From Natronogracilivirga saccharolytica (GTDB taxonomy: Bacteria; Bacteroidota; Rhodothermia; Balneolales; Natronogracilivirgulaceae), in assembly GCF_017921895.1 (NCBI RefSeq), contig NZ_JAFIDN010000005.1:186001-250000 (forward strand): a stretch of 64,000 bases of DNA. Direction: 5' to 3'. Positions 2,884 through 63,781 of this stretch are shown piece after piece. How positions within the stretch are numbered: the first letter of the stretch is position 1; each line of letters starts with the position of its first letter. The notes under the pieces were generated by a model. The model did not search any database and was not told the DNA's origin. It saw only the letters and a list, made by a program, of their open reading frames with translations. A program made the position numbers and the translations under genes.

Positions 2884-4686
2884 ATGACACTTGTACATTC
2901 GTTTCACATCCCGGTAATGGGGACGGGACACTCCATTGACACCCCCATTCGAGTAGCTCCTTTTGGTATTGATTCTGTCATTTCCGTTGTGGATGACCTG
3001 CTGGTTGAGAAAATCCGCAAATATTATGCTGCCCAATACGATTTGCCTTACGAAAACATTCCCCGGAATGCGGATGACGGACGGGCCAGAAGAATCACCG
3101 CCTATCTTGATACCGTTGAGGATGTCGTAAAAAAGAAATTTTACGAGATCCGCAACCAGCCCTTCTTCTCCGAGAACGACAAGGCAAAATTCTTTGAAAT
3201 GCTTCCCGATGCATCAACGCTGAAATCAGGCTGGGAACAGCTCAAAAGCATGGCCCCTTCTTTTGAACGGGAGAAAATGGAGGAAAAACTCACTGCCATG
3301 ATGAAACCCGGCGCTATTGATGTCAACATCATGGCCAAGGTCGACCGGCTGCTGAACGACGACAGCGGCACCCCGATGAGCAGTGAATTCAGTGACGCAA
3401 ATGCCGCATTCCGCGGATTCGCAAAAAGCAAACTCCGTTCTTCTGTCGTACTCTCAGCGGGCTTCAACCCCCGCCTGTACAACTACATGTCAGAATTCCG
3501 CGACTTCTACCGCGATGCGTCCGGTGATCTGAAGAAGAAGATCATTCTTAAAGTCAGCGATTTCCGCTCGGCCCTGATCCAGGGGAAATTCCTGGCTAAA
3601 AAAGGTCTGGAGATTGCCGAATTCCGCATTGAATCCGGACTGAATTGCGGCGGACACGCTTTCGCATCAGACGGACAGCTTCTGCCCGTGATACTGGATG
3701 AGTTTCGTGAAAAAAAGGAGCAGCTCAGCCGCACCTTCCAGCCCCTTATTACCTCCTTTTATGAAAGTATGGGCTGGGATTATCCCGAATCAGCTTACAC
3801 AGAGGAGCCGCTCATAACCGTTCAGGGCGGCATCGGCACAAGCGGTGAAAACCTCAGGCTGCTCGAAGAATACGAAATGGACAAAACCGGCTGGGGAACA
3901 CCATTTCTGCTTGTGCCGGAAGCGACACCGGTAGACGAACCCACCCGGGAATTGCTCCGGAATGCCGGTGAAGATGATCTGTATCTCAGCGGAGTTTCGC
4001 CGCTTGGGGTCCCCTTCAACAATGTCAGAAATACCGGTTCGGAAAACTGGACAGCCCGGCGCTCAAAAACCGAAAAGCCGGGTTCCCCTTGCCCGAAAGG
4101 GTTTCTACAGTTCAACACCGAGTTCACCAACAACCCGATCTGCACCGCATCAAGTCAGTACCAGATTCTCAAGATCGATGAGATCAATCGTTCGGAGCTG
4201 GATGAAACCGCCAAGCAAAAACGCAAGGCGGAAGTCCTCGAGAAAACATGTCTCTGTGACCATCTTGGCAACGGTGCACTGATCGCACTCGGGATTCAGG
4301 GAGAAAGCCGCTCGCCCCAGGCCGTCTGCCCCGGCCCCAACCTGGCCTGGTTTAACGGTATCTACTCTCTCCGTGAAATGATTGACCATATTTACGGGCG
4401 GGAAAAATCTCTGGTTCCGCGGGAACGTCCGCACATGTTTGCCAAAGAGATGGCCATGTACGTGGATTACCTTTCCCGCCAGCTGGAACTGGCTGATACA
4501 TCGGACGAAAAAGAGATGAAGCGCATTAACAAGCTTTTCAAAAATCTTCGGAGCAGTATCGACTACTGTGAGGAGATAGCCGGTGGCAAAGCATACGTAG
4601 ATGAAAATCTGGCTTCACTGCGGGATGCCGTCAGTGTACAGCGCGCCCGGCTTGAGGAGCTTTCTCCCGAAATGGTGGCAAACTGA
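2884..4686 (+). CDS. Conserved-looking protein of unknown function with six cysteines in motifs
   Basis: A 600-residue soluble protein with no signal peptide. I recall similar openings (PVMGTGHSIDTPIRVA, residues 10-25) in unassigned Bacteroidota proteins but know no function. All six cysteines lie in compact, conserved-looking motifs: LNCGGHAF (C255), SPCPKG (C403), NPICTASSQ (C420), TCLCDHLGNG (C456, C458) and VCPGPNL (C482), which suggests a metal or Fe-S site or thiol chemistry. CGGHAF together with VQGGIGTSGE (313-322) recalls the flavin TIM-barrel of nitronate monooxygenases, but this likeness is weak. The C-terminal 100 residues look helical. Its stop codon abuts the stop of the convergent lipoprotein gene, both lying in the palindrome TGATCA. 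Confidence 0.6.
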   Translation: MTLVHSFHIPVMGTGHSIDTPIRVAPFGIDSVISVVDDLLVEKIRKYYAAQYDLPYENIPRNADDGRARRITAYLDTVEDVVKKKFYEIRNQPFFSENDKAKFFEMLPDASTLKSGWEQLKSMAPSFEREKMEEKLTAMMKPGAIDVNIMAKVDRLLNDDSGTPMSSEFSDANAAFRGFAKSKLRSSVVLSAGFNPRLYNYMSEFRDFYRDASGDLKKKIILKVSDFRSALIQGKFLAKKGLEIAEFRIESGLNCGGHAFASDGQLLPVILDEFREKKEQLSRTFQPLITSFYESMGWDYPESAYTEEPLITVQGGIGTSGENLRLLEEYEMDKTGWGTPFLLVPEATPVDEPTRELLRNAGEDDLYLSGVSPLGVPFNNVRNTGSENWTARRSKTEKPGSPCPKGFLQFNTEFTNNPICTASSQYQILKIDEINRSELDETAKQKRKAEVLEKTCLCDHLGNGALIALGIQGESRSPQAVCPGPNLAWFNGIYSLREMIDHIYGREKSLVPRERPHMFAKEMAMYVDYLSRQLELADTSDEKEMKRINKLFKNLRSSIDYCEEIAGGKAYVDENLASLRDAVSVQRARLEELSPEMVAN

Positions 4687-19854: not shown

Positions 19855-22260
19855 TCAGAACACTACCTGAGTTTCCGTAACAGTAAAGGGAGCTTCCAGT
19901 CCGTCAACACGCAGAACGAATCCGCCCTCCTCTACAATCCACTCATTATTGTCATTGACAAATGCCAGCTTGCTGACCGGCACCCGGAATGTCACTTCTT
20001 CAGTCGCGCCGGCTGCAATTTCGATCTTCTCAAAATCACGAAGGCGTTTTACCGGAGGTGTGATAGATGCATAATCCTGGGAGGAAAACAGCATGACGGT
20101 TTCTTTCCCGTCACGATCAGATACATTCTGAACTTCCACAGTCACCTCAATGATGTCATCCACTCCGTAAGAAGAAGCATCTGTTGACAGAGAGACATAC
20201 TCAAATTCGGAATAGCTCAGGCCGAACCCGAATTCATACTGAGGATAAAACTGAGTGCCGGTGGGGGTGCCTTCAAGCTCCAGGTTTTCCGTGTGCTTGT
20301 GGTAGTAGGGAATCAGCTTGTTCGGATAGCGCGGATAGGTGTACGGCAGCCTTCCGGAGAAGTTGGATTCACCGAAAAGCAGAGACACAAGTGCTTCACC
20401 GCCATAATTGCTGGGCAAATAGGCATTGACGATGGCAGGCACCAGCGGTTCTACTTTGCTGATAATGCGCGGGCGGCCCTGGGCAAGCACCATGACCACC
20501 GGTTTGCCGGTTTCCGCAGCTACACGAACCAGCTTTTGCTGATAGTCCGACAGATAAAGGTCGTCCAGGTCTCCCTCACCCTCGCAATAGGAGTTTTCTC
20601 CGACAGCCAGTACGATGACATCCTTGTCTTCGGCTTTTTGCCTGAAAGCATCAAAATCATCCACAAATTCATCATCAAACGCACCGTCATGATCGAAGCG
20701 GACGGTTTCGTACAGGGTTACATTTCCTTCGCCCAGTTTCTCCGAAAAAGCGTCGTAAATCGTCAGGTAATCTTCGGTAAACTCATCCACCAGATCTCCC
20801 TGCCAGGAGTAGCTCCAGCCGCCGTTGAGCGGCCGCATGGTGTTTGCGGCGGGACCGGCAATCAGTGCGGAAATATCCGGATCAAGAGGCAGAACATTGT
20901 CTTCGTTTTTGAGCAGCGTGATGGATTCCAGTGCGGTCTGACGCGAGGCATCGGCAAAAGCTTCGGATGCAAATTCCGGATAATCATCCAAAACCGTATA
21001 GGGAGTTTCAAACAGTCCCATTTTCACCTTTACCGTCAGTATCCGGCGCACAGCATCATCGATCCGGTCCATCGGGACCTCTCCCTCATTGACCAGTTCC
21101 ACAAGATATCTGGAAAAGTCAAAATCGTAGGGAACCATGGACATATCCACACCGGCATTGATGGCCATTCGTACAGCGTCTTTATAATCGGCGGCGACGC
21201 GGTGGCGGGTATAGAGGTAAATGATATCCTGCCAGTCGGTCAGAACAAAACCTTCAAAGCCCATCTCCTCTTTCAGCAGGCCGGTAATCAGTTCTTTGCT
21301 GGAGTGAAACGGAATCCCGTTGATCTCTCCGGAGTTGAGCATGACGGTGAGCGCACCGGCATCGATACCTCCGCCTTCGAAGGGAGGCACATGGTACTCG
21401 CGAAGCTGTGACTCGGGTATCCATGCTGGTGAACGGTCGCGCCCGCTGAGTGTATGGGAATATCCCAGAAAATGTTTGGGGCAGGATGCAATCTGATAGG
21501 GGTTGCCAATGTCATTGTCTTCACCTTCATATCCTTTCACCAGTTCGTACCCCAAAACTTCAGACAGATAGGGATCTTCGCCGAAGGTTTCCCAGTGCCG
21601 GGGCCATCGCGGATCGACACCAAGGTCGAGTACGGGAGAAAACGTCCATGCCACACCGGTAGCCCTTGTTTCATAGGCTGTTATTTCACCGGCCCGGCGC
21701 ACGAGTTCCGGATTCCAGGTAGCGGCCATGCCGATTTGCTGGGGAAAAAGCGTGGCGCCGTCGACATAGGAAGCACCGTGGATCATGTCCAGTCCGTATA
21801 TGACAGGAATATCCTGTCCGGACTCTTCAATGGCATATCCCTGAATTTCAGACAGCAGTTCATTCCAGAACTCCGGAGTGCGGGCGCGGTTGTTGGCGGT
21901 GTTCAGTACCGATCCCACCTGGTAGGTACGGAACGCCTTTTCCATCATTTCCGGATCCAGCTCAAACGGTTCATAGCTGCTGTATACATCCTCTCCCTTG
22001 CCAAGTACATCGAGGGTGATCTGGGTCATCTGTCCCACTTTCTCCTCAAGTGTCATTTCGGCGATCAGCCCGTCCACCTTCTCGCGAGTTTCGGCTGATA
22101 TGACGGATTCTGTTTCCGCCTGATCGTGTGCCGCCTGTTCCGTTCCGGCTGCGGCATCCTCCCCGTTTCCGTCATCTGCGGCCGTCTGATTCATCGCGGA
22201 ACCGCAGGATGCGATCAGGAACAGCGCCAGAACAAGCATGGTTTTGTTTAGAAATTGCAT
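19855..22260 (-). CDS. GH3 beta-glucosidase, lipoprotein
   Basis: An 801-residue exo-acting beta-glucosidase. I chose the ATG at 22260, because it gives a signal peptide with lipobox IASC (Cys19); an open frame continues 44 codons upstream without a leader-like sequence. The GH3 N-domain follows an acidic linker, with KHFLGY (substrate-binding K-H) and the catalytic nucleophile D342 in GFVLTDWQD. Then come the alpha/beta sandwich domain and a C-terminal Fn3-like domain (YEFGFGLSYSEF onward). It is the last gene of the polysaccharide locus and would release glucose from oligosaccharides made by the two GH30 enzymes. Confidence 0.9.
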   Translation of the reverse strand: MQFLNKTMLVLALFLIASCGSAMNQTAADDGNGEDAAAGTEQAAHDQAETESVISAETREKVDGLIAEMTLEEKVGQMTQITLDVLGKGEDVYSSYEPFELDPEMMEKAFRTYQVGSVLNTANNRARTPEFWNELLSEIQGYAIEESGQDIPVIYGLDMIHGASYVDGATLFPQQIGMAATWNPELVRRAGEITAYETRATGVAWTFSPVLDLGVDPRWPRHWETFGEDPYLSEVLGYELVKGYEGEDNDIGNPYQIASCPKHFLGYSHTLSGRDRSPAWIPESQLREYHVPPFEGGGIDAGALTVMLNSGEINGIPFHSSKELITGLLKEEMGFEGFVLTDWQDIIYLYTRHRVAADYKDAVRMAINAGVDMSMVPYDFDFSRYLVELVNEGEVPMDRIDDAVRRILTVKVKMGLFETPYTVLDDYPEFASEAFADASRQTALESITLLKNEDNVLPLDPDISALIAGPAANTMRPLNGGWSYSWQGDLVDEFTEDYLTIYDAFSEKLGEGNVTLYETVRFDHDGAFDDEFVDDFDAFRQKAEDKDVIVLAVGENSYCEGEGDLDDLYLSDYQQKLVRVAAETGKPVVMVLAQGRPRIISKVEPLVPAIVNAYLPSNYGGEALVSLLFGESNFSGRLPYTYPRYPNKLIPYYHKHTENLELEGTPTGTQFYPQYEFGFGLSYSEFEYVSLSTDASSYGVDDIIEVTVEVQNVSDRDGKETVMLFSSQDYASITPPVKRLRDFEKIEIAAGATEEVTFRVPVSKLAFVNDNNEWIVEEGGFVLRVDGLEAPFTVTETQVVF

Positions 22261-22385
22261 GGACCGGCTTAATAAGGTATGGATGATATCAATCCGCCCT
22301 GATGACACAACCGACTGATTCTCTACTGTTTTGAAAGTTTTCATATAATTATTTTTAAAGTTTTTAAACTGGCAGGAATAATTCT

Positions 22386-23846
22386 TTACCACAGGAATGT
22401 ACCAAGAGTCCGGCCGGCTAAAGAATACCGGAATTTACCACTATTTGACCGAACCTGAAAAGTTTGTGCCTGCTGCGACCGGTTTATTATCACCAGTTTG
22501 TGCTCTCCTTCTTCATTGATAAAAGCCAGATAGTTCAAATCTTGCTGAGGCGCGGTAGACTGAATCCTGTAATCTCCCGGTCTCACATGCCTGGCCATGT
22601 GCGCCAGTATGTAATACTCTTCATTGCGTGACAGGAACTCCTCATTTTCCGGAATGGTAACAACACCGCGGCAGTTCGGACATCCCCCGTTCTGGGGCCC
22701 GTCCTGCTCGTCCAGTGCCAGGTTCCAAAAAATTGCATTTCTGGAATAGTTTCGCACGGAGCCCAGAAAGATGTGATCCATATTCCAGGTTATATTCTCC
22801 CAGAAATCAGTAGCCCAGCCTCCTCCGGAAATTTCCGTAAAATAGAGATGCTTGTCGGGGTGTGCCTCGGCCACGTGTGACATTTGTCCGACGTCACCTC
22901 CATAACCGTGAAATGCAGAACCTTTCACATACTGCCGTGTGTCTTCATCATCAAGTATGTTAATGGGATATTGAAAATTGTCCCAGTTGTGATCATAAAT
23001 AATAATATCTGTCTGAATGTTTTCCTTTTCAAACAGGGGACCCAGATAATCACGGATCAGCTTGCTCTGATCCTGCCAGGGCATGTACATGGTCGGATAC
23101 CCGGAAGTTTCATGAAGCGGCTCGTTTTGAACCGTAATTGCATGGATCGGAATACCTTTGTCTTCATATGCCTGAATAAACATTTTCAGGTATCGTGAAA
23201 AGTTTTCGAAATGCTGTTCCTCCAGACGCCCGCCTCTCATACTGTTGTTGTTTTTCATCCAGCCCGGGGCGCTCCAGGGACTTGCCATAATCCACAGATC
23301 AGGATTGATCTCAAGAACTTCCTGCATGACAGGTATTACATCCCTGAGATCGACTTCGGGAATCCGAAAATTTTCCAGCCCGGGTTCATCGCAGTAAGAG
23401 TACGTTCCCAGTGAAAAATCGGATGAACCGATTGTAAGACGGATATTGGATATACCTATTCCCTCTTCCGGATCAAAAAGTTCTGTGAGAAGCTCCCTGC
23501 GATCCTCGTTATCCATCTTTTTCAGCAGGTAAGCCGACGAACCGGTCATGGCCGCACCAAAACCCGTGATTGACTGCATACGCTGATCTGCATCAACTTC
23601 GATCACAATACTTGCGGAATCATCCGAAAATGCAATGGGATTTTGCCGGTCATTGAGTGCCAGTCTGTTGCCGGATGTCAGATAAACGGTTACGTCACCC
23701 GTTACCTCCGAATTGTCATTCCCGTTCTCACCCGGTTCGCCGCCATTGTTTGACGACGTAGGGGAGTCATCGCTGCAGGACAGCAGGACAAATACGGCAA
23801 GAATCATCACAAGTGGCCGGATCCGGTTCAGATATGCTGCGGTCAT
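22386..23846 (-). CDS. GH30 endo-glucanase, lipoprotein (first of two)
   Basis: 486 residues. The signal peptide ends in the lipobox LLSC (C24), followed by a Ser/Gly/Asn-rich linker. The (beta/alpha)8 domain has the GH30 start QSITGFGAAMTGSSAYLL (91-108), SPWSAPGWMK (189-198), the acid/base E242 in TVQNEPLH and the nucleophile E338 in YFTEISGG. The C-terminal beta domain ends in a GH30-type sandwich. Family members with this architecture (subfamily 3) cleave beta-1,6-glucan, and BT3312 in the pustulan locus of B. thetaiotaomicron is the known case. Here it follows susD after 16 bases. The exact specificity is inferred. Confidence 0.88.
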   Translation of the reverse strand: MTAAYLNRIRPLVMILAVFVLLSCSDDSPTSSNNGGEPGENGNDNSEVTGDVTVYLTSGNRLALNDRQNPIAFSDDSASIVIEVDADQRMQSITGFGAAMTGSSAYLLKKMDNEDRRELLTELFDPEEGIGISNIRLTIGSSDFSLGTYSYCDEPGLENFRIPEVDLRDVIPVMQEVLEINPDLWIMASPWSAPGWMKNNNSMRGGRLEEQHFENFSRYLKMFIQAYEDKGIPIHAITVQNEPLHETSGYPTMYMPWQDQSKLIRDYLGPLFEKENIQTDIIIYDHNWDNFQYPINILDDEDTRQYVKGSAFHGYGGDVGQMSHVAEAHPDKHLYFTEISGGGWATDFWENITWNMDHIFLGSVRNYSRNAIFWNLALDEQDGPQNGGCPNCRGVVTIPENEEFLSRNEEYYILAHMARHVRPGDYRIQSTAPQQDLNYLAFINEEGEHKLVIINRSQQAQTFQVRSNSGKFRYSLAGRTLGTFLW

Positions 23847-23862
23847 TTCATTACTCCTTATT

Positions 23863-25323
23863 TCAAAAGCCTACATTTTGTTCAAGTTGCGGATTTCTGT
23901 CCAGTTCTGTCTGAGGTATTGGCCAGACCAGTTTAAATTCAGCAACATCATAATCAAGAAGACTGCCGTCTGCACCGCGCAAATTGCTCATGATCTCCAG
24001 TGCCCGGCCTGAACGCTTCAGGTCGAAGTACCTGTGACCTTCAAATGCCAGTTCCAGCCGGCGTTCATGAAGCACCAGGTCCAGTGCCTCTTCCGATCCG
24101 GATGCCGACACTTGCGGCAGGTCAACGCGGGCACGAACTTCATTCACAAGATCCATGGCCGGACCAACCTGATCCATTCTGGCGTATGCTTCGGCTTTCA
24201 GCAGCATAATATCTGCAAGGCGCATCAGAATAAAATTTTGTGAGCCGGTTGTATTACGATATTTGTTGACGAAAGGATAATTGCTCACATCCCAGTGCCG
24301 GTCTGTCCAGAGCCCGCTGACATCCCGGAACCGGACCGATGAGTTCAGGCGAATGTCATCTCCTTCAACTTCAAACGCCTGAACCAGATCCCAGGTCGGT
24401 GTATTGAACTTTTTCCAGTCGGTACCCTGGAACATGAATACACCCCAGTTACCTCCGGTATCAGATCCGTAGTAGTTAACCTCAAAAATTGCTTCATTTG
24501 AGTTCTCTGCGGACCCGTCCCAAAGCGCATCATAATCCGGCAGCAGCGAGTAATTGCCGTTCATTACCTGACCGGCGGCTGTCACCACTTCCGACCAGTT
24601 GCCCAACTCGGCATGGACTCTCGCTGTTAACCCCTGTACCGCTCCGGTAGTTGCATACCCTTTGTCAGGAGCCGTTGAGCTCACCCGGGGCAAGGCGGTT
24701 TCCAGGTCGCTCAAGATCAATTCGTAAGCCTCTTCAGGTGTGCTGGGCGACGGGTACATCACTTCATACACTTCTTCGATGTTACCAGCATGAATTCCTG
24801 AGACATCCCTGGTAATAATCGGAATGTTTTCCCATAACCTGGCAACATCAAAGTAGGCCCAGGCTCTGATGAAAGAAGCCTCTCCAAGGATTCTGTCGCG
24901 CTGATTATCAGTAAGCCCTGATACTTTGTCGATATGCTCGATTACCGTGTTGGTTTTGGATATCATGCCATAGAGGTATCCCCAGTCGCGCTCGACAACT
25001 TCATTCGTAGCCGATACACGCCACTCTTCCATCTCAAACATGGCAGGGTTATCAGCTCCGGCGTGAGCATTATCTGACTGGGCATCACCAATGAGATAGT
25101 AATCCAGCTGAAAGTATTCTGATTTAAAATCGTTATATGCTCCGCCAAGAAGACTTTCGATTTCACCAGCAGAATAGCTCCTTTCATCAATATCGGTTTC
25201 GTCTACACCGAGATCTTCATTGGAAAAATTTGAAAGTGGCTCTCTGGTCAGAAAATCATCGCAGGATGTCACCAGCGGCACACACAGTAAAAAGGCAAGT
25301 ATGGTTGCAATTACATTTTTCAT
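23863..25323 (-). CDS. SusD/RagB-family glycan-binding lipoprotein
   Basis: 486 residues. The lipobox VTSC (C21) anchors it at the outer surface, where SusD proteins close over the SusC channel and capture glycans. The N-terminus DDFLTREPLSNF is the usual SusD opening. TPR-like helices occupy the first third (ASFIRAWAYFDVARLW near residues 145-160), and the C-terminal RagB/SusD end has ERRLELAFEGHRYFDLKRSG, an almost diagnostic stretch. The gene follows susC by 15 bases. Confidence 0.95.
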   Translation of the reverse strand: MKNVIATILAFLLCVPLVTSCDDFLTREPLSNFSNEDLGVDETDIDERSYSAGEIESLLGGAYNDFKSEYFQLDYYLIGDAQSDNAHAGADNPAMFEMEEWRVSATNEVVERDWGYLYGMISKTNTVIEHIDKVSGLTDNQRDRILGEASFIRAWAYFDVARLWENIPIITRDVSGIHAGNIEEVYEVMYPSPSTPEEAYELILSDLETALPRVSSTAPDKGYATTGAVQGLTARVHAELGNWSEVVTAAGQVMNGNYSLLPDYDALWDGSAENSNEAIFEVNYYGSDTGGNWGVFMFQGTDWKKFNTPTWDLVQAFEVEGDDIRLNSSVRFRDVSGLWTDRHWDVSNYPFVNKYRNTTGSQNFILMRLADIMLLKAEAYARMDQVGPAMDLVNEVRARVDLPQVSASGSEEALDLVLHERRLELAFEGHRYFDLKRSGRALEIMSNLRGADGSLLDYDVAEFKLVWPIPQTELDRNPQLEQNVGF

Positions 25324-25338
25324 GGCTGACTCACGTTA

Positions 25339-28300
25339 TTATAAATCAATATTAAATCCGAATATGATGGTTCGGGACTGGGGATAGGTACCGTAATCAA
25401 CGCCCAGCTCGACACCGCTGGTCCCGTAGGCATTTACTTCCGGATCAAAACCGCTGTAGCCTGTGAATGTGTATAGATTCTGGCCTGTCCCGAAGACCGT
25501 GAGGTTGCTCATCCTCAGCGGGCTTATCCAGCGGTAGGGAAGCGAATAAGAAAGCGTCAGTGTTTTAATACGCAGGTAGGACCCGTCCTCAACAAACCGG
25601 GTGGAATTTCTCACATTTTCCATGCTTGAAGTTGCCCTTGGAATATCGGTAACATCACCCGGCTCCCTCCAGCGGTCGAGCACCTCCGTCGACTGATTTC
25701 TGTGATCGAACATTCCCTCAGTATCAATCCGGGATGCATTATAAATATCGTTGCCCTGCACTCCCTGCAGAAATACCATCAGCTCGAATCCGCGGTAACG
25801 GAACGTATTTGTCATTCCATAGATAAAATCAGGCTGCGCATTTCCGATTACCGTTCGGTCTGCAGCAGTTATTGTACCCGTTCCGGTCAGGTCACGATAC
25901 TCAATCATTCCGGTTTCCGGATTGACCCCGTCCGAAATATAGCCGTAGAATGTTCCCAAACTCATACCCGGCTCCATGCGGATCACATTTTCATTGTTGG
26001 AATAAATCTGTGCGTAATCATATACCTGATTCAAACCAAGCTCAGTAACCTCATTCCGGTTGAATGAAATGTTAAACCCGGTATCCCACTGAAACCTGTT
26101 GCCGGTGATGTTTCTTGTTTCGACAACAAATTCGAGGCCGCGATTTTCCATTTTTCCGTCATTTCGGGTAATATAGTCTGCGGACCCGATGCGTGGAACC
26201 ACCACATTGAGCAGGAGATCATCGGTTTTCTTCAGATAGGCATCGGCTGAAAAGGTAATCCGGCCGTCAAATGCCATGATGTCCAGACCAACATTGGTTT
26301 GCGTTGTTGTTTCCCATTTCAGATCCCGGTTTTCAAAACTGGTCCGGAACATGGAAGGTCCTGACAGCGGCTGGGTCGGAGGGCGCCTGCTGGTGCCGAA
26401 CAAGCCATACGAAGCATAATTGCCAATTCCTTCCTGATTCCCGGTCACACCCCAGCCGGCACGAATTTTCAGGTCGTCAAGAAAATCCACTCCATTCATG
26501 AAAGACTCCCCGGTGACACGCCAGGCAGCGGAAACCGAAGGAAAGACTCCCCAACGGTTGCCCTCGGCAAGCTTCGAAGACCCGTCATACCTGATCGTCG
26601 AAGATATGATATAGCGGCTCTGGTAGTTATAACTCACCCGGCCGAGGAATGATATCAGCGCCCAGTCAGCGGCCACTGTACCGGCGTTGATAATCTGATT
26701 GGCGACATTCAGTGTCTGAACTGACGTGTTGGACGGGAAGTCATTGACGCTTATGTAATTCTGATCCCATCGGTTATGCTGCATGGTAAACCCGCCAAGG
26801 GTTCCGAAGCTGTGATTGCCAAGTTCAAAATCGTAGGCCAGTGTGTTTTCAAGCAGCCAGTTGTACTCCCGGTTTTCGTTATCGGTAGCCTGTCCGTTCT
26901 CCTGGCGGCCGAAGGAGGTCTGAATCGGATCAATGAACTGATACCAGTTCCATCGGTTATGGTCGACTCCGAAATTGGTTCTCCAAAGCACATTTTCGTG
27001 CAGATTCACATTGAATATGACGTTTCCTGACAACCGGTCACTTCTGTCCCAGCCGGCCCGTGACATATAGGCGAGCGGATTTTCCCACGATGGCTGATAG
27101 GGGTTGGGCATAAACTGGCCGCTCCTTTCAGGATCCGTGCTCCAGACTTCAAGGAACGGTGGGGTGTTGATGGAGCTGAGAATGGTACCTCCTCTCGCGA
27201 CACTCTGACTGTCCTCGGTGTCTCTTCTCTCCCTTCTTGAGTACGACAAATTGGTGGATACCTTGAACCAGCTGCGAATTTGATTATCCAGGTTCACCCT
27301 GAAATTGTAACGTTCATTTGAGGCCGGACTGACGATACCCTCTTCACTCAGATATCCCAAAGAAAGGTAATACTGCATGAAGTCGGTTCCGCCGGATGTT
27401 GAAAGCTGATAATCCTGGTAGGCTCCGGTTCCGAAGGTCTTGTCCATCCAGTCCGTATCCGTTGTTATGGATTCCGGTACGGTGCCCGGCCCGGATATTT
27501 CGGTCATCAGTTCACGATACTGGGCGGTATTCAGTGCATCCATCTGTATGGGCAGGTCGGAAAAACCAAAGTTGGTCTGAAAATTGACTGTGGACTCGCC
27601 TTCCCGTCCCCGCTTGGTTGTTATCAAAACTACCCCGTTTGCGCCTCTTGACCCGTAAATGGCGGCAGAAGATGCATCTTTCAGGATTTGAAGGGAAGCA
27701 ATATCGTTGGGATTGAGATTCTGAATGTTATTTGTCGGCACTCCGTCCACAACATACAGAGGCTCATTGCCGGCCTGCACGGAAGTAGACCCCCTGACCC
27801 TTACCGTCAGGCCGGTTCCCGGTTTGCCTGAAGGCTGGCTTACCTGTACCCCGGCCGCACGGCCCTGAATGGCCTGACTTACATCGGTGATCGGCGTTCT
27901 GCCCACCTCATCCATACGAACAACAGAAACAGCGGTACTCAGATCCCGAATTCGCTCTGTCCCGTATCCGACGACTACAACATCATCCATCCACAGAACA
28001 TCTTCACTCAGTTCAATCGTGATCTCCGACTGTCCGTCTACCGGTACGGCCATCGATACAAATCCGACATAGGTTATTTCCAGAACGGCATCGGCGCCCG
28101 GAACGGTCAGACTGAACTCACCCTGCTGGTTGGTGACGGTTCCGATGGTTTCATCCCTTACCGCTATGGTAGCTCCAACGAGCGGCTCACCGGTGGCAGC
28201 ATCTGTGACTTGTCCGGTTACGCGGTGATTCTGGCTTTCCTGATTCGGAGCAGGTGCCTCTGCGGCATTGGCAGCCCCGTTTATCACGATCATGTTACCA

Positions 28301-28575
28301 TTAATCGCGTAACTGACATCCAGATCGGTGAAAAGCTGCTGGAGCAGTTCTTCTACCGAACCATCTTCAACATGCACTGAAACCGATGGAGCGGATTCAA
28401 GATCAACGTTCCGGTAAAAGAAACTGTAATCTGTTTCTTCTTCGATTATTTTCATGGCATCAAGCGGACTGATCTGATCCGTTATGATCGTAACCTGATG
28501 CTCCTGAGCTGCCGCGTCAGCAAAAACAGGAGTGATTGCATGCATAAAAAATGCAGCAATGAGCAACCTCTTCAT
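25339..28575 (-). CDS. SusC/RagA-family TonB-dependent transporter with STN domain
   Basis: 1078 residues from the ATG at 28575, chosen because MKRLLIAAFFMHAITPVFADA is a signal peptide; the frame is open for 40 more codons with two other ATGs. Order of domains: STN signalling domain (about 27-100), carboxypeptidase-like regulatory domain (about 117-192), TonB-box-like DDVVVVGYG (197-205), plug (205-320, with YVVDGVP and GSRGANGVVLITTKRG) and a 22-strand barrel to the C-terminus. An STN domain is expected when the receptor signals to a FecR anti-sigma factor, which is encoded just upstream. It imports oligosaccharides together with SusD. Confidence 0.93.
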   Translation of the reverse strand: MKRLLIAAFFMHAITPVFADAAAQEHQVTIITDQISPLDAMKIIEEETDYSFFYRNVDLESAPSVSVHVEDGSVEELLQQLFTDLDVSYAINGNMIVINGAANAAEAPAPNQESQNHRVTGQVTDAATGEPLVGATIAVRDETIGTVTNQQGEFSLTVPGADAVLEITYVGFVSMAVPVDGQSEITIELSEDVLWMDDVVVVGYGTERIRDLSTAVSVVRMDEVGRTPITDVSQAIQGRAAGVQVSQPSGKPGTGLTVRVRGSTSVQAGNEPLYVVDGVPTNNIQNLNPNDIASLQILKDASSAAIYGSRGANGVVLITTKRGREGESTVNFQTNFGFSDLPIQMDALNTAQYRELMTEISGPGTVPESITTDTDWMDKTFGTGAYQDYQLSTSGGTDFMQYYLSLGYLSEEGIVSPASNERYNFRVNLDNQIRSWFKVSTNLSYSRRERRDTEDSQSVARGGTILSSINTPPFLEVWSTDPERSGQFMPNPYQPSWENPLAYMSRAGWDRSDRLSGNVIFNVNLHENVLWRTNFGVDHNRWNWYQFIDPIQTSFGRQENGQATDNENREYNWLLENTLAYDFELGNHSFGTLGGFTMQHNRWDQNYISVNDFPSNTSVQTLNVANQIINAGTVAADWALISFLGRVSYNYQSRYIISSTIRYDGSSKLAEGNRWGVFPSVSAAWRVTGESFMNGVDFLDDLKIRAGWGVTGNQEGIGNYASYGLFGTSRRPPTQPLSGPSMFRTSFENRDLKWETTTQTNVGLDIMAFDGRITFSADAYLKKTDDLLLNVVVPRIGSADYITRNDGKMENRGLEFVVETRNITGNRFQWDTGFNISFNRNEVTELGLNQVYDYAQIYSNNENVIRMEPGMSLGTFYGYISDGVNPETGMIEYRDLTGTGTITAADRTVIGNAQPDFIYGMTNTFRYRGFELMVFLQGVQGNDIYNASRIDTEGMFDHRNQSTEVLDRWREPGDVTDIPRATSSMENVRNSTRFVEDGSYLRIKTLTLSYSLPYRWISPLRMSNLTVFGTGQNLYTFTGYSGFDPEVNAYGTSGVELGVDYGTYPQSRTIIFGFNIDL

Positions 28576-28839
28576 GTACTTCCAGAGCGTCAAATTGTCT
28601 GAAATGATGCGGAAGGCCCGGTAAAAGTAACTTGCATCCATGCGTACACCTGTGTTTTTAAGTAATGAGTTTACATTGTATGAAAGGGCTTCCACATCGG
28701 GACACAGTTGTGCTGCATGAGGAAACCGGTAAACAGATATTTTTGCCGTGCAGAAACCGCCAGGAACTGCAGAAATATCACTTACAATAATTTATGGATC
28801 CGAGGATTCCATTCGTCGTGCTTTGCTTCGATCGTTCTG

Positions 28840-29874
28840 CTACTTAATAATTACTTTGTTGTTTTCAGTCCTGTATTCAAAAGGAGTAGTACTTTTTATG
28901 GCTTCCAGTACCTGGTCAATGTTTTCACGATTCCGGAAAGTGCCGCTGTATTCGGTATCGTTAAACTTGTCGATGTCATAAGAAATCTCAACATCAAACC
29001 ACATTTCAAGGCGATTGGCCAGCTCATCAAAAGTAGCGTTCCGGAAGACCAGGACACCATTTCTCCAGGCTGTGTACTCCATGGTATTGATATCTGAAAT
29101 TTCCAGCATATCATTTGACTTGTCGTAAACAGCCCGCTGGCCTGGTGACAGTGCGGCAAGCTTTTCCGCCGAACCATTCAGGTTTGAATTCAGGAGTTTC
29201 ACACCCCCTCTTTCGAGCACGGTTTCAATGCTGTTCTCATCGGGATAAGCCCTCACATTAAACGCTGTACCCGTAACCTGCACATCCATGTGTGACGTGG
29301 ACACCACCAGATTTCCGGCCCTGCTTTCCGGAGACTCGAAATAAGCCTCACCCTCGAGTTGTAATCTGGTTTCTCCTTTATAATCGCCGGCGGCATGAGT
29401 GAGTCGTGAATCGGAGTTCAGCCAGACCCGGGTACTGTCTGCCAGCATAAACTGTGAGCGTTGTCCCATTTCTGTCTGTACCGATACAATAGCTGATTCC
29501 ATTGTATCTCCGTATCGCACAAACAGAACCGCTGTGGTAATGACCAGCGGGAGAAACAGTATGGCTGCCGCATTGCGAATAAAAAAGAGTACGCTGGTCT
29601 TTCTGGCGTTCGCGTTTGCTTTCTCCTTATTCTGAAACTCTTTCAGATCTGTGCTGCTGACAATGCGATCCCATGCTGCCTGCTCATCGGGATTGAATTT
29701 ATTGGAAAGATCCGAGCTGGCTACATTCCAGGCCAGACTGATCTTTTTAAATGCTTTCCGGTTGGATTCTGATTCAGCAAGCCACTCATCAAGCAGCTTC
29801 TGTTCACGATCATCTAATGAATCTTTCAAGGCTTTATGAATCAGACTCCAGGGTATGTGCTCACTTTTTTTCAT
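28840..29874 (-). CDS. FecR-family anti-sigma factor
   Basis: 344 residues from the ATG at 29874 (the frame is open 18 codons further up). A cytoplasmic part (1-93) would bind the ECF sigma factor, one membrane segment crosses at about 94-120, the FecR domain (about 129-227, with TEMGQRSQFMLADSTRVWLN) and a C-terminal DUF4974/STN-like domain (about 270-344, FDELANRLEMWFDVEISY) are periplasmic and meet the STN domain of SusC. The gene is separated from its presumed sigma gene by the second GH30 gene, which is unusual. It lies 57 bases after that gene. Confidence 0.92.
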   Translation of the reverse strand: MKKSEHIPWSLIHKALKDSLDDREQKLLDEWLAESESNRKAFKKISLAWNVASSDLSNKFNPDEQAAWDRIVSSTDLKEFQNKEKANANARKTSVLFFIRNAAAILFLPLVITTAVLFVRYGDTMESAIVSVQTEMGQRSQFMLADSTRVWLNSDSRLTHAAGDYKGETRLQLEGEAYFESPESRAGNLVVSTSHMDVQVTGTAFNVRAYPDENSIETVLERGGVKLLNSNLNGSAEKLAALSPGQRAVYDKSNDMLEISDINTMEYTAWRNGVLVFRNATFDELANRLEMWFDVEISYDIDKFNDTEYSGTFRNRENIDQVLEAIKSTTPFEYRTENNKVIIK

Positions 29875-29931
29875 TCTATTGCTTCGTTCCGTTTCCGGGA
29901 AGACACGGAATTGCCGTAATCCCCCCAAAAA

Positions 29932-31386
29932 TTATTTAATTCCCCACACGATGGTAGCTGCGCTCTGCGGCGGGATTTCAGCCAGGGCGCTTTTTCCTTC
30001 ACTGGTCAACCGGAACTCTGAAACAGTTTCAGCCGGATTGTACATAATTAAAACTGTGCCGCCGTCTGGCCGCCTGAATGCTACATTGGGCAGTTCCTCA
30101 GTATCAGTGGAGTAAATCCGCACCGATCCCGGATGCACGAATTTTGAGGCATGTGCTATGAAATAATAGGCGTCATTACGGGTCACCTCATCGCCGTCGA
30201 TCGTGATGGCCCCGAGACATAGTGTGCAGCCACCGTCGGTATGCGGCTCAAGATCCGGATTCGAAACCATATTCCATTGCAGGACATTCCTGCTCCAGTT
30301 ACGGGGAGCGCCTATCATGAGATTTTGCATATGCCAGGGCAGGTTCTCTGAAAACTCACTGTTGGCACCAACCCATTGCTCTGTAAAATAGAGCTTTTTC
30401 TCAGGGTATTGTTCGTGCACCTTGCTCATTGATTCAATTTCCCCGCCATACAAATGAAAGGCCGTTCCGTCTACATATTGAGCCGCCTCAGCATCACCAA
30501 GGACATCCAGAGGGTAGTCGATACGGTCAAGGTTGTGATCGTAAATAATAATTTTTGTATCAATGTCATGTTCTTCAAAAGCCGGACCAAGATGATTCTT
30601 TATAAATTCAGCCTGTTCATCCGCTTTCATCAGCAGGCTCGGGTTGTTTCCCGGATGGAGCGGCTCGTTCTGTACGGTGATGGCATCTATGCGGATCCCC
30701 TCCTTTTTCATTTTCTGAACATACCTCACGAAATAAAGCGCATAGGCATCATAAAATTCCGGGAGCAGGCTTCCGCCAATTGAATGCTGATTGCTTTTCA
30801 TCCACACCGGCGGCGACCAGGGTGAGCCCAAAATGGGGATGTCAGGTGCCAGCTCCAGAATTTCTTTCAGCATTGGAATCAGGTACTTGCGGTCGGGGTC
30901 CAGGGTAAAGTGCTCCATTTCCGTATCCGTTTCTCCCTTCTCAAGATCGCTGTAGGAAAAAACATGCGGATCGAGATCAGAAGCACCGATACTCACCCGC
31001 AAATAACTGACACCAATTCCCTGCTCATCAGTAGTAAATAATTCTCTCAGCAGCTCAGACCGGGCCTGATCACTCATTTCAGAGAGCCATAATGCACTTC
31101 CACCAGTTAAGGTATAACCGAAACCATCCATTTCCTGATAGGTCTGCTCCGGATTCAAGGCAATTTCGGTGATATCACCATCCCCCCTCTGCGTATTAAT
31201 TTCCGAAAACGAGATCTTTTGTTCCTGCTCCTCAAATAAAAAAGACTTGTCAGCACTTGTTATCCAAACAGATGCGTCCATGGACGGACTTTCATTCTGG
31301 CAGGAAACGGTCAGCCAGCTTGCTGCTGCAAGCAGCGCCGCCGGAAACAAAAGCAGTCTTGTAAATACGTTATTTTCAGCCTTCAT
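29932..31386 (-). CDS. GH30 endo-glucanase, lipoprotein (second of two)
   Basis: 484 residues with signal peptide and lipobox TVSC (C29). It shares the overall fold and motifs with the other GH30: EMDGFGYTLTGGSALWL (85-101), SPWSPPVWMK (188-197), acid/base E241 in TVQNEPLH and nucleophile E336 in YFTEQWVG. Identity between the two is only moderate by eye, so they are old paralogues or have different tasks, for example endo against side-chain-removing action. It lies between the sigma gene (150 bases upstream) and fecR (57 bases downstream), on the same strand. Confidence 0.88.
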   Translation of the reverse strand: MKAENNVFTRLLLFPAALLAAASWLTVSCQNESPSMDASVWITSADKSFLFEEQEQKISFSEINTQRGDGDITEIALNPEQTYQEMDGFGYTLTGGSALWLSEMSDQARSELLRELFTTDEQGIGVSYLRVSIGASDLDPHVFSYSDLEKGETDTEMEHFTLDPDRKYLIPMLKEILELAPDIPILGSPWSPPVWMKSNQHSIGGSLLPEFYDAYALYFVRYVQKMKKEGIRIDAITVQNEPLHPGNNPSLLMKADEQAEFIKNHLGPAFEEHDIDTKIIIYDHNLDRIDYPLDVLGDAEAAQYVDGTAFHLYGGEIESMSKVHEQYPEKKLYFTEQWVGANSEFSENLPWHMQNLMIGAPRNWSRNVLQWNMVSNPDLEPHTDGGCTLCLGAITIDGDEVTRNDAYYFIAHASKFVHPGSVRIYSTDTEELPNVAFRRPDGGTVLIMYNPAETVSEFRLTSEGKSALAEIPPQSAATIVWGIK

Positions 31387-61804: not shown

Positions 61805-63781
61805 CTACTTCTTTTTTTGCTTTTTTGCCCAGGTATCGCGCAGGGTGACAGTCCGGTTGAAGATCTGCTTCTCCTTTGTTGAGTACTTGTCGGGGACATA
61901 ATACCCTTTGCGCATGAACTGGTAATACTCCTTCGGTCCGTTCTCTGCGACGGACGGCTCATCAGCCATTGCCGGTTCTGCATAGGCTTCACTGATGATA
62001 TTCAGGCTGTTTTTGTTGATGTAATCGGTGAAATCGTGCTTTTGTAAGCTTTCTGCCGAATTTGAAGCATCTTCAGGCGATGTCGCATCTTGTGAACTAC
62101 CGGCTGCTCCCGGATTTGAGGGTTTACCAGCATGTGTGTCCTCTGCCGCCTTACCGGAATTTTTCGATTTACCGGCATTTTCCGCTTTAACGGCATTTTC
62201 CGCTTTACCGGCTTCCTTCGCTTTACCGGCTTCCTTCGCTTTACCGGCTTCCTTCGCTTTACCGGACTCTTCCGCCTTAGCTGCTTTGGCCGCTTCGTCA
62301 ACAGGATTTTCGGCATCAAACAGGCGGTCATATTCCCGGACTTCGATTTTGTGCGCATGCGGAATACTTACCCAGTGCAGTGTTCCTTTGGCCTTGATTC
62401 CGGATGTATCGCTGCCACTGCGGCTGTCCGGATGATACCGGCAATGCACCTCGGTCACATTTCCATCCTCATCCTTCACAAAATCATCACATGTGACGAT
62501 AAAAGCACTCTTCAGACGCACACTTCGTCCGGGTCCCAGCCGGAAAAACTTGCGCGGCGGATCCTCCATAAAATCACCGCGCTCGATGTACAGTTCACCG
62601 CTGAACGGGATCATCCGGTTACCGGCCGCATCATCCTCGGGATTGTTCTCACTTACCAGCTGCTCGACCTGTCCCTCCGGCCAGTTGGTGATCACCAGTT
62701 TGATCGGATCAAAAACCACCATCCGCCTGAGCGATATTTTGTTGAGATGCTCCCTGGCGCAGAATTCCAGAAGTGACACATCGATCAGATTGTCGCGTTT
62801 GGCCACACCGATTCGGGTGCAGAAATTCCGGATAGCTTCGGGGGTGTATCCGCGCCGGCGCAGGCCGGATATGGTCGGCATCCGGGGGTCATCCCATCCG
62901 TCGACATAATTTTCCTCGACCAGTCTGAGCAGTCTTCGCTTGCTCATGATGGTGTACGACATGTTGAGGCGGGCAAATTCATACTGGCGGGATGGAAACA
63001 GTTCCAGCTTTTCGATGAACCAGTCGTAAAGCTCACGATGCGGCATGAATTCCAGGGTACAGATGGAATGGGTGATCTTTTCGATGGCGTCGGATTGTCC
63101 GTGGGCCATGTCGTAGGTTGGGTAGATGCACCATTTGTCGCCGGTTCGATGGTGCGGAGCGTGTTTGATGCGGTAAATGACCGGATCGCGCATCAGCATA
63201 TTTGGCGATGCCATATCGATTTTTGCGCGCAGAGTGCGGGTTCCTTCCGGAAACTCGCCGTCCCGCATCCGCCGGAAAAGGTCTTCATTTTCTTCCGGAC
63301 TGCGGTCGCGATACGGGCTGTTTGTCCCGGGGCGGGTCGGGGTGCCCTTGGCGGCGGCAATTTCTTCGGAACTCGAGTCGTCAACATAGGCCAGGCCCTT
63401 GCGGATCAGCGTGATGGCGAACCCGAACAGATCCTCGAAATAATTGCTGGCATACAGTTCGCGTGCCCATTCATAGCCCAGCCAGCGCACATCGTGTTTG
63501 ATGTTTTCGACATACTCGATGGTTTCGGTGACCGGATTGGTGTCATCAAAGCGAAGGTTCGTTTCCCCGCCGTATTGATCAGCCAGACCGAAATTCACAG
63601 AGATCGACTTGGCATGGCCGATGTGAAGATAGCCGTTGGGTTCGGGTGGAAAGCGTGTGAGTACCGATTCTTGGCGTCCCTCCTTCAGATCCTTTTCAAT
63701 AATCTCCTCAAGGAAATTCTTCGGGGTGCGTTCTTCACTGCTTCCGTTATCCTGACTTTTATGCTCACTCATTTCTTTCAT
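61805..63781 (-). CDS. glnS: Glutaminyl-tRNA synthetase with repeat insertion
   Basis: 658 residues. It charges tRNA-Gln. The class I motifs are [12 protein letters not shown] (45-56) and MSKRR (279-283, the KMSKS counterpart); the catalytic domain and two anticodon-binding barrels are complete. About 100 residues longer than E. coli GlnRS (554), owing mostly to an Ala/Lys/Glu/Gly stretch at about 496-580 that splits the distal barrel between [11 protein letters not shown] and [12 protein letters not shown]. The stretch includes three exact KAKEAG-type units. The chain resumes normally ([30 protein letters not shown]), so the enzyme should work. Confidence 0.93.
62153..62296 (-). repeat. Eight 18-bp tandem repeats inside glnS
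   Basis: Eight units in exact register from 62153 to 62296. Three are identical (ACCGGCTTCCTTCGCTTT on the plus strand, at 62207, 62225 and 62243); the outer ones are progressively degenerate. They encode the KAKEAG-like units of the insertion. Confidence 0.88.

Follow-up and report, generated by a model that had tools for sequence, protein, structure and literature searches.

A divergent FabX-like flavoprotein family of Bacteroidota with a proposed iron-sulfur site and a genomic link to nitrous-oxide and nitric-oxide genes

A 600-residue protein of Natronogracilivirga saccharolytica belongs to a family, lacking prior annotation, that looks like a relative of the flavin- and iron-sulfur-containing enzyme FabX. 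The family itself, its fold, a set of invariant residues and a genomic link to nitrous-oxide and nitric-oxide genes were computed, and on this basis we propose that the enzyme would bind FMN and an Fe-S cluster, would act on an acyl-ACP and would deliver its electrons to an acceptor other than O2, thereby providing unsaturated lipids under anoxic conditions in place of an O2-dependent desaturase. This overall reading is held tentatively, at somewhat less than an even chance. The gene is located in the window (by which we mean the whole stretch of 64,000 nucleotides analysed, positions 186,001 to 250,000 of contig NZ_JAFIDN010000005.1), as follows:

2884..4686, + strand: gene, stop codon included, for a putative 600-residue FabX-like flavo-iron-sulfur protein of the nitronate monooxygenase (NMO) superfamily (open reading frame and homologues)

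The gene family and its predicted fold

The open reading frame starts with ATG, has a codon-position composition normal for coding DNA and is a genuine gene, present in single copy in the genome; its product is taken to be cytoplasmic, since inspection by eye shows no obvious signal peptide. A homologue is present in 48 of 59 close relatives (those that carry a name are all Balneolales/Balneolaceae) and, in a phylum-wide sample, in 112 of 296 genomes and 67 of 140 genera, a count of carriers that includes one fragment (genome G020, a 130-residue match with 34% identity at a contig end). The full-length set, from which seven matches with alignments shorter than 500 residues were excluded, consists of 97 loci, yielding 84 non-redundant sequences (identical ones removed, the window protein included), and thinning at 85% identity left the 74 sequences used for the later conservation counts and alignments. 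Identity to the window protein across the aligned homologues is 42-78%. In a tree of 39 sequences (three further chosen ones dropped out, being absent from the de-duplicated set) there are two deep clades, and membership of the window's order changes twice along the tree: three sequences from this order are nested within the rest of the phylum, while four from other orders group with its remaining nine, a pattern that would fit horizontal transfer as well as old paralogues. The plasmid and viral contig searches found no member of the family on either type of element.

Two genomes hold additional copies. In one (G140), a second copy (contig C1:4371176-4372871; L082 4162-6022) is broken into several pieces with in-frame stops, besides an intact copy elsewhere in the genome; in the other (G187), two intact and closely related copies (L083 4596-6422 and L084 3027-4844) are found on separate contigs.

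In sequence searches at E values up to 10, the window protein matched no family in Pfam (including PF03060, nitronate monooxygenase) or in NCBIfam (including the FabK and PfaD models TIGR03151 and TIGR02814), and against PDB sequences it gave chance matches only. For the 74 members, the scattered Pfam matches, most of them weak and most involving helical families, were taken as chance; NMO is not among the 25 families listed out of 49. The AlphaFold2 model (from the 74-row alignment; pLDDT 93.3, pTM 0.93) indicates with near certainty an FMN-type TIM barrel of the NMO superfamily. Foldseek against the PDB placed PfaD (4yx6, E 1.8e-9) at the top, followed by FabX (7e1q, 2.7e-8), FabK (2z6i, 1e-6) and 2-nitropropane dioxygenase (2gjl, 5.6e-6). 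With VIA-align on the full model, the five FabX entries listed rank first (Z 24.1-23.0), the best of them with Z 24.1, rmsd 3.1 and 332 residues aligned to a 363-residue chain at 20% identity, and FabK (21.3), PfaD (20.6) and the solved nitronate monooxygenases (Z 16-20) rank lower. A reading of the sequence alone had noted, in the motifs LNCGGHAF and VQGGIGTSGE, a weak likeness to flavin TIM-barrel enzymes, and had named structure prediction with Foldseek as one check; both motifs are present in the protein, and the check returned flavin TIM barrels, the closest structures being FabX, FabK, PfaD and nitronate monooxygenase.

The part of the model that aligns with FabX comprises residues 1-506. 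The match covers FabX residues 6-363, and since residues 6-266 number 261, the FabX Fe-S subdomain (267-363, 97 residues) must contribute at least 71 of the aligned positions. When residues 362-512 (the corresponding subdomain) were folded alone (pLDDT 82), Foldseek returned no row at E <=0.001 and the best VIA Z was 3.7, with FabX absent from the listed matches; this result from an isolated model neither favours nor excludes FabX kinship of that part. The window protein differs from FabX in length (600 against 363 residues), with two helical regions outside the match:

3079..3300, + strand: residues 66-139, helical in the model (AlphaFold2 secondary structure) and outside the profile alignments
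4402..4683, + strand: residues 507-600, C-terminal helical extension past the FabX-aligned part (model and VIA-align)

Active-site residues and cysteines in comparison with FabX

FabX of H. pylori, according to the available parts of its description (PMC8626469), is an acyl-ACP dehydrogenase/isomerase with FMN and a [4Fe-4S] cluster. The FMN is held by N99, E175, Q240, T243, G221 and others, the catalytic H182 is hydrogen-bonded by S273, the cluster is bound by C300, C304, C308 and C320 (PMC8626469), and the ACP-binding residues include K152, I156, R160 and R164, with helix alpha7 as the binding helix. The window protein shares with it the TIM barrel, the catalytic histidine with its serine partner, most of the FMN contacts, a cysteine-bearing C-terminal subdomain and a basic helix at the place of ACP binding. 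The corresponding features are:

2908..2928, + strand: residues 9-15 (IPVMGTG), first barrel strand and loop, conserved and placed by analogy where FabX has its FMN loop GGMG
3325..3327, + strand: N148, counterpart of FabX N99, a candidate FMN side-chain contact (74/74)
3565..3603, + strand: residues 228-240 (RSALIQGKFLAKK), conserved basic helix in place of the FabX ACP-binding helix alpha7 (ungapped reading)
3631..3657, + strand: residues 250-258 (ESGLNCGGH), with E250, C255 and H258, all invariant, as counterparts of E175, S179 and H182
3823..3837, + strand: residues 314-318 (QGGIG), in which G315-G316 correspond to the FMN-touching G220-G221 of FabX (alignment and conservation)
3889..3906, + strand: residues 336-341 (GWGTPF), corresponding to QMATRF (240-245) of FabX, with T/S339 kept for T243 and Q240 lost (alignment)
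3997..3999, + strand: S372, counterpart of S273, the serine partner of the catalytic histidine (74/74)

Invariant in all 74 sequences are N254, C255, G256, G257, H258, F260, Q314, G315, G316 and G318. The catalytic pair is kept throughout (H258 for H182 and S372 for S273, each 74/74, by hhalign and conservation), and so are four FMN contacts (N148 for N99, E250 for E175, T/S339 for T243 and G316 for G221), with N148, E250, H258, G316 and S372 strictly invariant, whereas Q240 of FabX is replaced by G336. The glutamate precedes the histidine by eight residues, against seven in FabX. In the basic helix, with an ungapped reading that starts at the preceding strand, K152 becomes R228 (74/74), I156 becomes I232 (68/74) and R164 becomes K240 (70/74), and R160 is replaced by F236, with loss of the basic residue; because hhalign puts a gap inside this helix, the correspondence with the ACP helix is suggestive only.

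The protein contains seven cysteines (255, 403, 420, 456, 458, 482 and 562), and not the six first counted, and C562 lies outside the motifs to which all cysteines had been assigned. The other six, which had been judged to look conserved, are indeed invariant in 84 of 84 sequences, while position 562 is occupied by Cys in 50 sequences, by Tyr in 33 and by Leu in the remaining one. In the C-terminal half they are placed as follows:

4090..4092, + strand: C403, proposed Fe-S ligand, invariant, aligned with C319 of the Bacteroidaceae-type FabX-like proteins
4141..4143, + strand: C420, proposed Fe-S ligand, invariant, aligned with C332 of the same proteins
4249..4257, + strand: C456-L457-C458, proposed Fe-S ligands, invariant, aligned with C358-L-C360 of the same proteins, EKTCLC being common to both
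4327..4341, + strand: residues 482-486 (CPGPN), invariant, by eye in place of the FMN-touching F339-T340-G341 of FabX (over F339-T340-G341-A-N)
4567..4569, + strand: C562, the seventh cysteine (Cys in 50/84)

The spacing of the proposed ligands is CX16CX35CXC, and the cluster motif of FabX (CX3CX3CX11C) is absent; a further difference is that C255 and C482 are invariant in the family. Given this spacing, we regard the family as a sister of FabX and do not claim it as FabX proper.

The link to FabX is closer through an intermediate group, 19 Bacteroidaceae-type FabX-like proteins of about 420 residues (from f24 and families resembling it), among them one with a direct phmmer match to FabX (8.7e-26). 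In profile comparison with hhalign, the 600-residue family scores 52-53 against this group (probability 86, E 5e-6 to 7e-6) and 31-32 against FabX (E 0.003-0.004, weak although above the controls), the controls (31 ordinary NMOs, 9 IMPDHs, 2 desaturases and two reversed alignments) scoring 16-21. The alignment places C403, C420, C456 and C458 onto C319, C332, C358 and C360. The C..C..CLC quartet, with its EKTCLC stretch, is common to the two groups, as are the N, GGH and GGI motifs; they differ in that the FabX-like proteins are about 180 residues shorter, add a CWTCG pair to the spacing CX12CX25CXC, retain a match to the Pfam NMO family (E 1.7e-30), which the window protein lacks, and occur in genomes without the 600-residue family. 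These proteins (L133, L140 1111-2370 and others) are found in nearly all sampled f24 genomes, with no specific NCBIfam name.

As the quartet is aligned in two lineages, the four-cysteine set seems older than their split, and we propose it as the cluster site. The presence of an Fe-S cluster in the 600-residue protein is quite likely, and from the alignment C403, C420, C456 and C458 would be its ligands. The sequence-only reading, which had thought a new redox or Fe-S enzyme plausible, fits with this picture on two counts: the best structural match carries a [4Fe-4S] cluster in the corresponding C-terminal region, and four invariant cysteines align with the quartet of FabX-like proteins.

Genomic context

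Within the window, the neighbours of the family gene are unrelated by eye, in keeping with an earlier statement that the gene has no pathway neighbours; this does not extend to its relatives, in which it is often beside genes of nitrous-oxide respiration. Elsewhere in the window, the minus strand carries at 19855-31386 a SusC/SusD-like pair, an anti-sigma-type gene, two related glycosidase-like genes and a large beta-glucosidase-like gene, which by eye probably form a polysaccharide-use locus, and at 61805-63781 a gene for a glutaminyl-tRNA-synthetase-like protein (by eye) with internal low-complexity repeats of the GKAKEA type.

The genes near the family gene in relatives include those for an Rrf2 regulator, a ScdA_N/hemerythrin protein (RIC), COX15, a CcoI-type copper ATPase, NosZ (887 bits, TIGR04246), NosD and the cbb3 oxidase components CcoNO and CcoP; the names RIC, Rrf2 and NsrR follow in part the usage of PMC1274295. 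In one locus (L201) the order is RIC (divergent), family gene, Rrf2, cytochrome c and NosZ, the last four being co-directional, and in another (L202) the family gene lies between nosY-side genes and ccoI-ccoNO-ccoP (assigned by similarity to scanned proteins). The RIC gene corresponds to dnrN in PMC1274295, the available parts of which do not mention the 600-residue protein.

This linkage to nosZ and RIC, together with the non-overlap with FabX-like genes described below, is newly found here. With an expectation that assumes uniform placement in 3.8 Mb and independent genomes, nosZ lies within 15 kb of the family gene in 16 of the 56 genomes with both (0.4 expected; 11 of the 16 from one family, f3), RIC does so in 18 of 76 (0.7 expected), and one or the other in 22 of 112 carriers, from families f3, f4, f19, f22 and f27 (about 1 expected). 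As a yardstick, the distance between nosZ and RIC themselves is at most 15 kb in 44 of 74. Both genes are also more frequent in carriers than in the other genomes: nosZ in 56/112 against 43/184 (odds ratio 2.9, p 0.008, stratified by taxonomic family) and RIC in 76/112 against 41/184 (odds ratio 5.2, p 9e-5, stratified likewise). A role in low-oxygen nitrogen-oxide physiology is likely. In Natronogracilivirga saccharolytica itself, a nos cluster with RIC is on a different contig from the family gene. The gene is not required for that lifestyle, since both nosZ and RIC are missing from 28 of 112 carriers, and at least one of them is present in 58 of the 120 genomes that lack the family gene as well as a FabX-like gene.

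No FNR-type box (TTGAN6TCAA) was found in any of 82 upstream stretches, and the neighbour tallies of the relatives hold no conserved fatty-acid gene. Outside the window's order, the commonest neighbour families (COX1, FAD_binding_2) occur in only 4 of 113 scanned neighbours, so there is no universal partner; this tally covers 113 of the 116 listed (three of locus L087 being near copies of those of L086) and omits neighbours shorter than 110 or longer than 999 residues and the loci L080, L081 and L097-L099. Genes resembling nadA and nadB (quinolinate synthesis) recur near the family gene (L066, L068, L071, L203), and a conserved 518-residue reading frame with no Pfam match lies directly upstream on the same strand in one locus (L069 5243-6796), with a counterpart in L067.

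FabX-like genes (E <= 1e-20 with a 276-residue query, a threshold that misses weaker copies) occur in 64 of 296 genomes, and in none of the 64 together with the 600-residue family; nearly all of these genomes belong to one family, so that the avoidance, confounded by taxonomy, is weak evidence. Of the 112 carriers, 88 have an O2-dependent desaturase (PF00487), as against a single one of the 64 genomes with FabX-like genes. Natronogracilivirga saccharolytica has two PF00487 desaturases and one FabA/FabZ-type gene, and no further NMO was found in its genome, the sole PF03060 match being an IMPDH by sequence.

Proposed function and alternatives

Desaturation that depends on O2 fails at low oxygen, and FabX-type chemistry puts a double bond into a short acyl-ACP. 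A family gene that is often beside nitrous-oxide genes may thus permit unsaturated lipids to be made without oxygen, and the genomic pattern fits an enzyme useful at low oxygen. In the mechanism we propose, FMN would be seated in the N-terminal TIM barrel, and C403, C420, C456 and C458 in the C-terminal subdomain would bind an Fe-S cluster, probably of the [4Fe-4S] type. H258, held by S372, would abstract a proton from the saturated acyl chain on ACP while FMN would accept a hydride from it; the product would be the 2-enoyl and then the cis-3-enoyl form, feeding unsaturated fatty acids, and the electrons would leave FMN through the cluster. The enzyme would in this way serve low-oxygen, denitrifying growth and substitute for the O2-dependent desaturase. 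For the acyl-ACP as substrate, drawn by analogy with FabX, the odds are roughly even. As FabX itself uses O2 as acceptor, according to the available parts of its description, an anaerobic role would require a different acceptor. UfaA (NGO1024) of Neisseria gonorrhoeae offers a precedent: this FabX homologue is reportedly essential for anaerobic unsaturated acyl synthesis, with an electron acceptor stated as unknown in the parts of PMC11300592 available, and the parallel with the window protein is drawn on its reported role.

The alternative that survives best, although we consider it unlikely, is an Fe-S flavoenzyme of NO/N2O respiration acting on a non-acyl substrate (such as a quinone, or a compound with a nitro or nitroso group), or working beside RIC in electron transfer or repair. 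It would account for a genomic link that is to NO/N2O and respiratory genes and not to fatty-acid genes, and the helical regions past the FabX-like part leave space for another partner; nevertheless, the catalytic residues conserved here are those of the acyl-ACP branch (with the histidine common to FabX and FabK), a conserved basic helix lies where FabX binds ACP, and the family avoids genomes with FabX-like genes. A zinc-binding or structural role of the cysteines, with no Fe-S cluster, is improbable: their spacing is unlike that of FabX, the AlphaFold2 model displays no metal and the isolated subdomain matched no Fe-S fold, but they are invariant in 84/84, the quartet is aligned in the FabX-like relatives and the full-model match covers most of the FabX Fe-S subdomain.

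FabK (2z6i, 5gvj) and PfaD (4yx6, 6lkc) share the flavin barrel, and FabK the catalytic histidine, according to the available parts of PMC8626469; FabK differs in being an NAD(P)H-dependent reductase. It is quite improbable that the window protein is an enoyl reductase of this type, working in the reducing direction, despite the top Foldseek E-value of PfaD and the Z of FabK: invariant cysteines stand where FabX has its cluster and FabK binds NAD(P)H, the FabK and PfaD models go unmatched in NCBIfam, and VIA-align puts FabX above both. A true nitronate monooxygenase, detoxifying nitroalkanes with O2, is very improbable, since the common superfamily, the GGH motif and the structural Z values are set against an unmatched Pfam NMO family, ordinary NMOs at the hhalign control level (20.8), three ordinary NMO-type proteins (L103, L138, L145) without the CxC quartet and the oddity of an O2-using enzyme adjoining N2O-respiration genes.

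The motif LNCGGHAF matches no paper, and the available parts of the literature found on NMO, FabX, UfaA and nosZ themes contain nothing on the 600-residue family, which on these searches alone is apparently absent from print. FabX was the sole characterised member of the superfamily with an Fe-S cluster as of 2021, according to the available text of PMC8626469, and a second, divergent Fe-S lineage is proposed here. In its most specific form, which is possible but doubtful, our preferred reading is that of an undescribed Bacteroidota family in which acyl-ACP would be desaturated in the absence of oxygen, the electrons moving from FMN by way of a rewired Fe-S site into an anaerobic respiratory chain, and whose genes would accompany those of nitrous-oxide respiration as the anoxic counterpart of the O2-dependent desaturase. 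A second Fe-S lineage travelling with N2O-respiration genes would make testable the way in which denitrifying Bacteroidota, with their O2-dependent desaturase, produce unsaturated lipids under anoxia, and also which acceptor takes the electrons.
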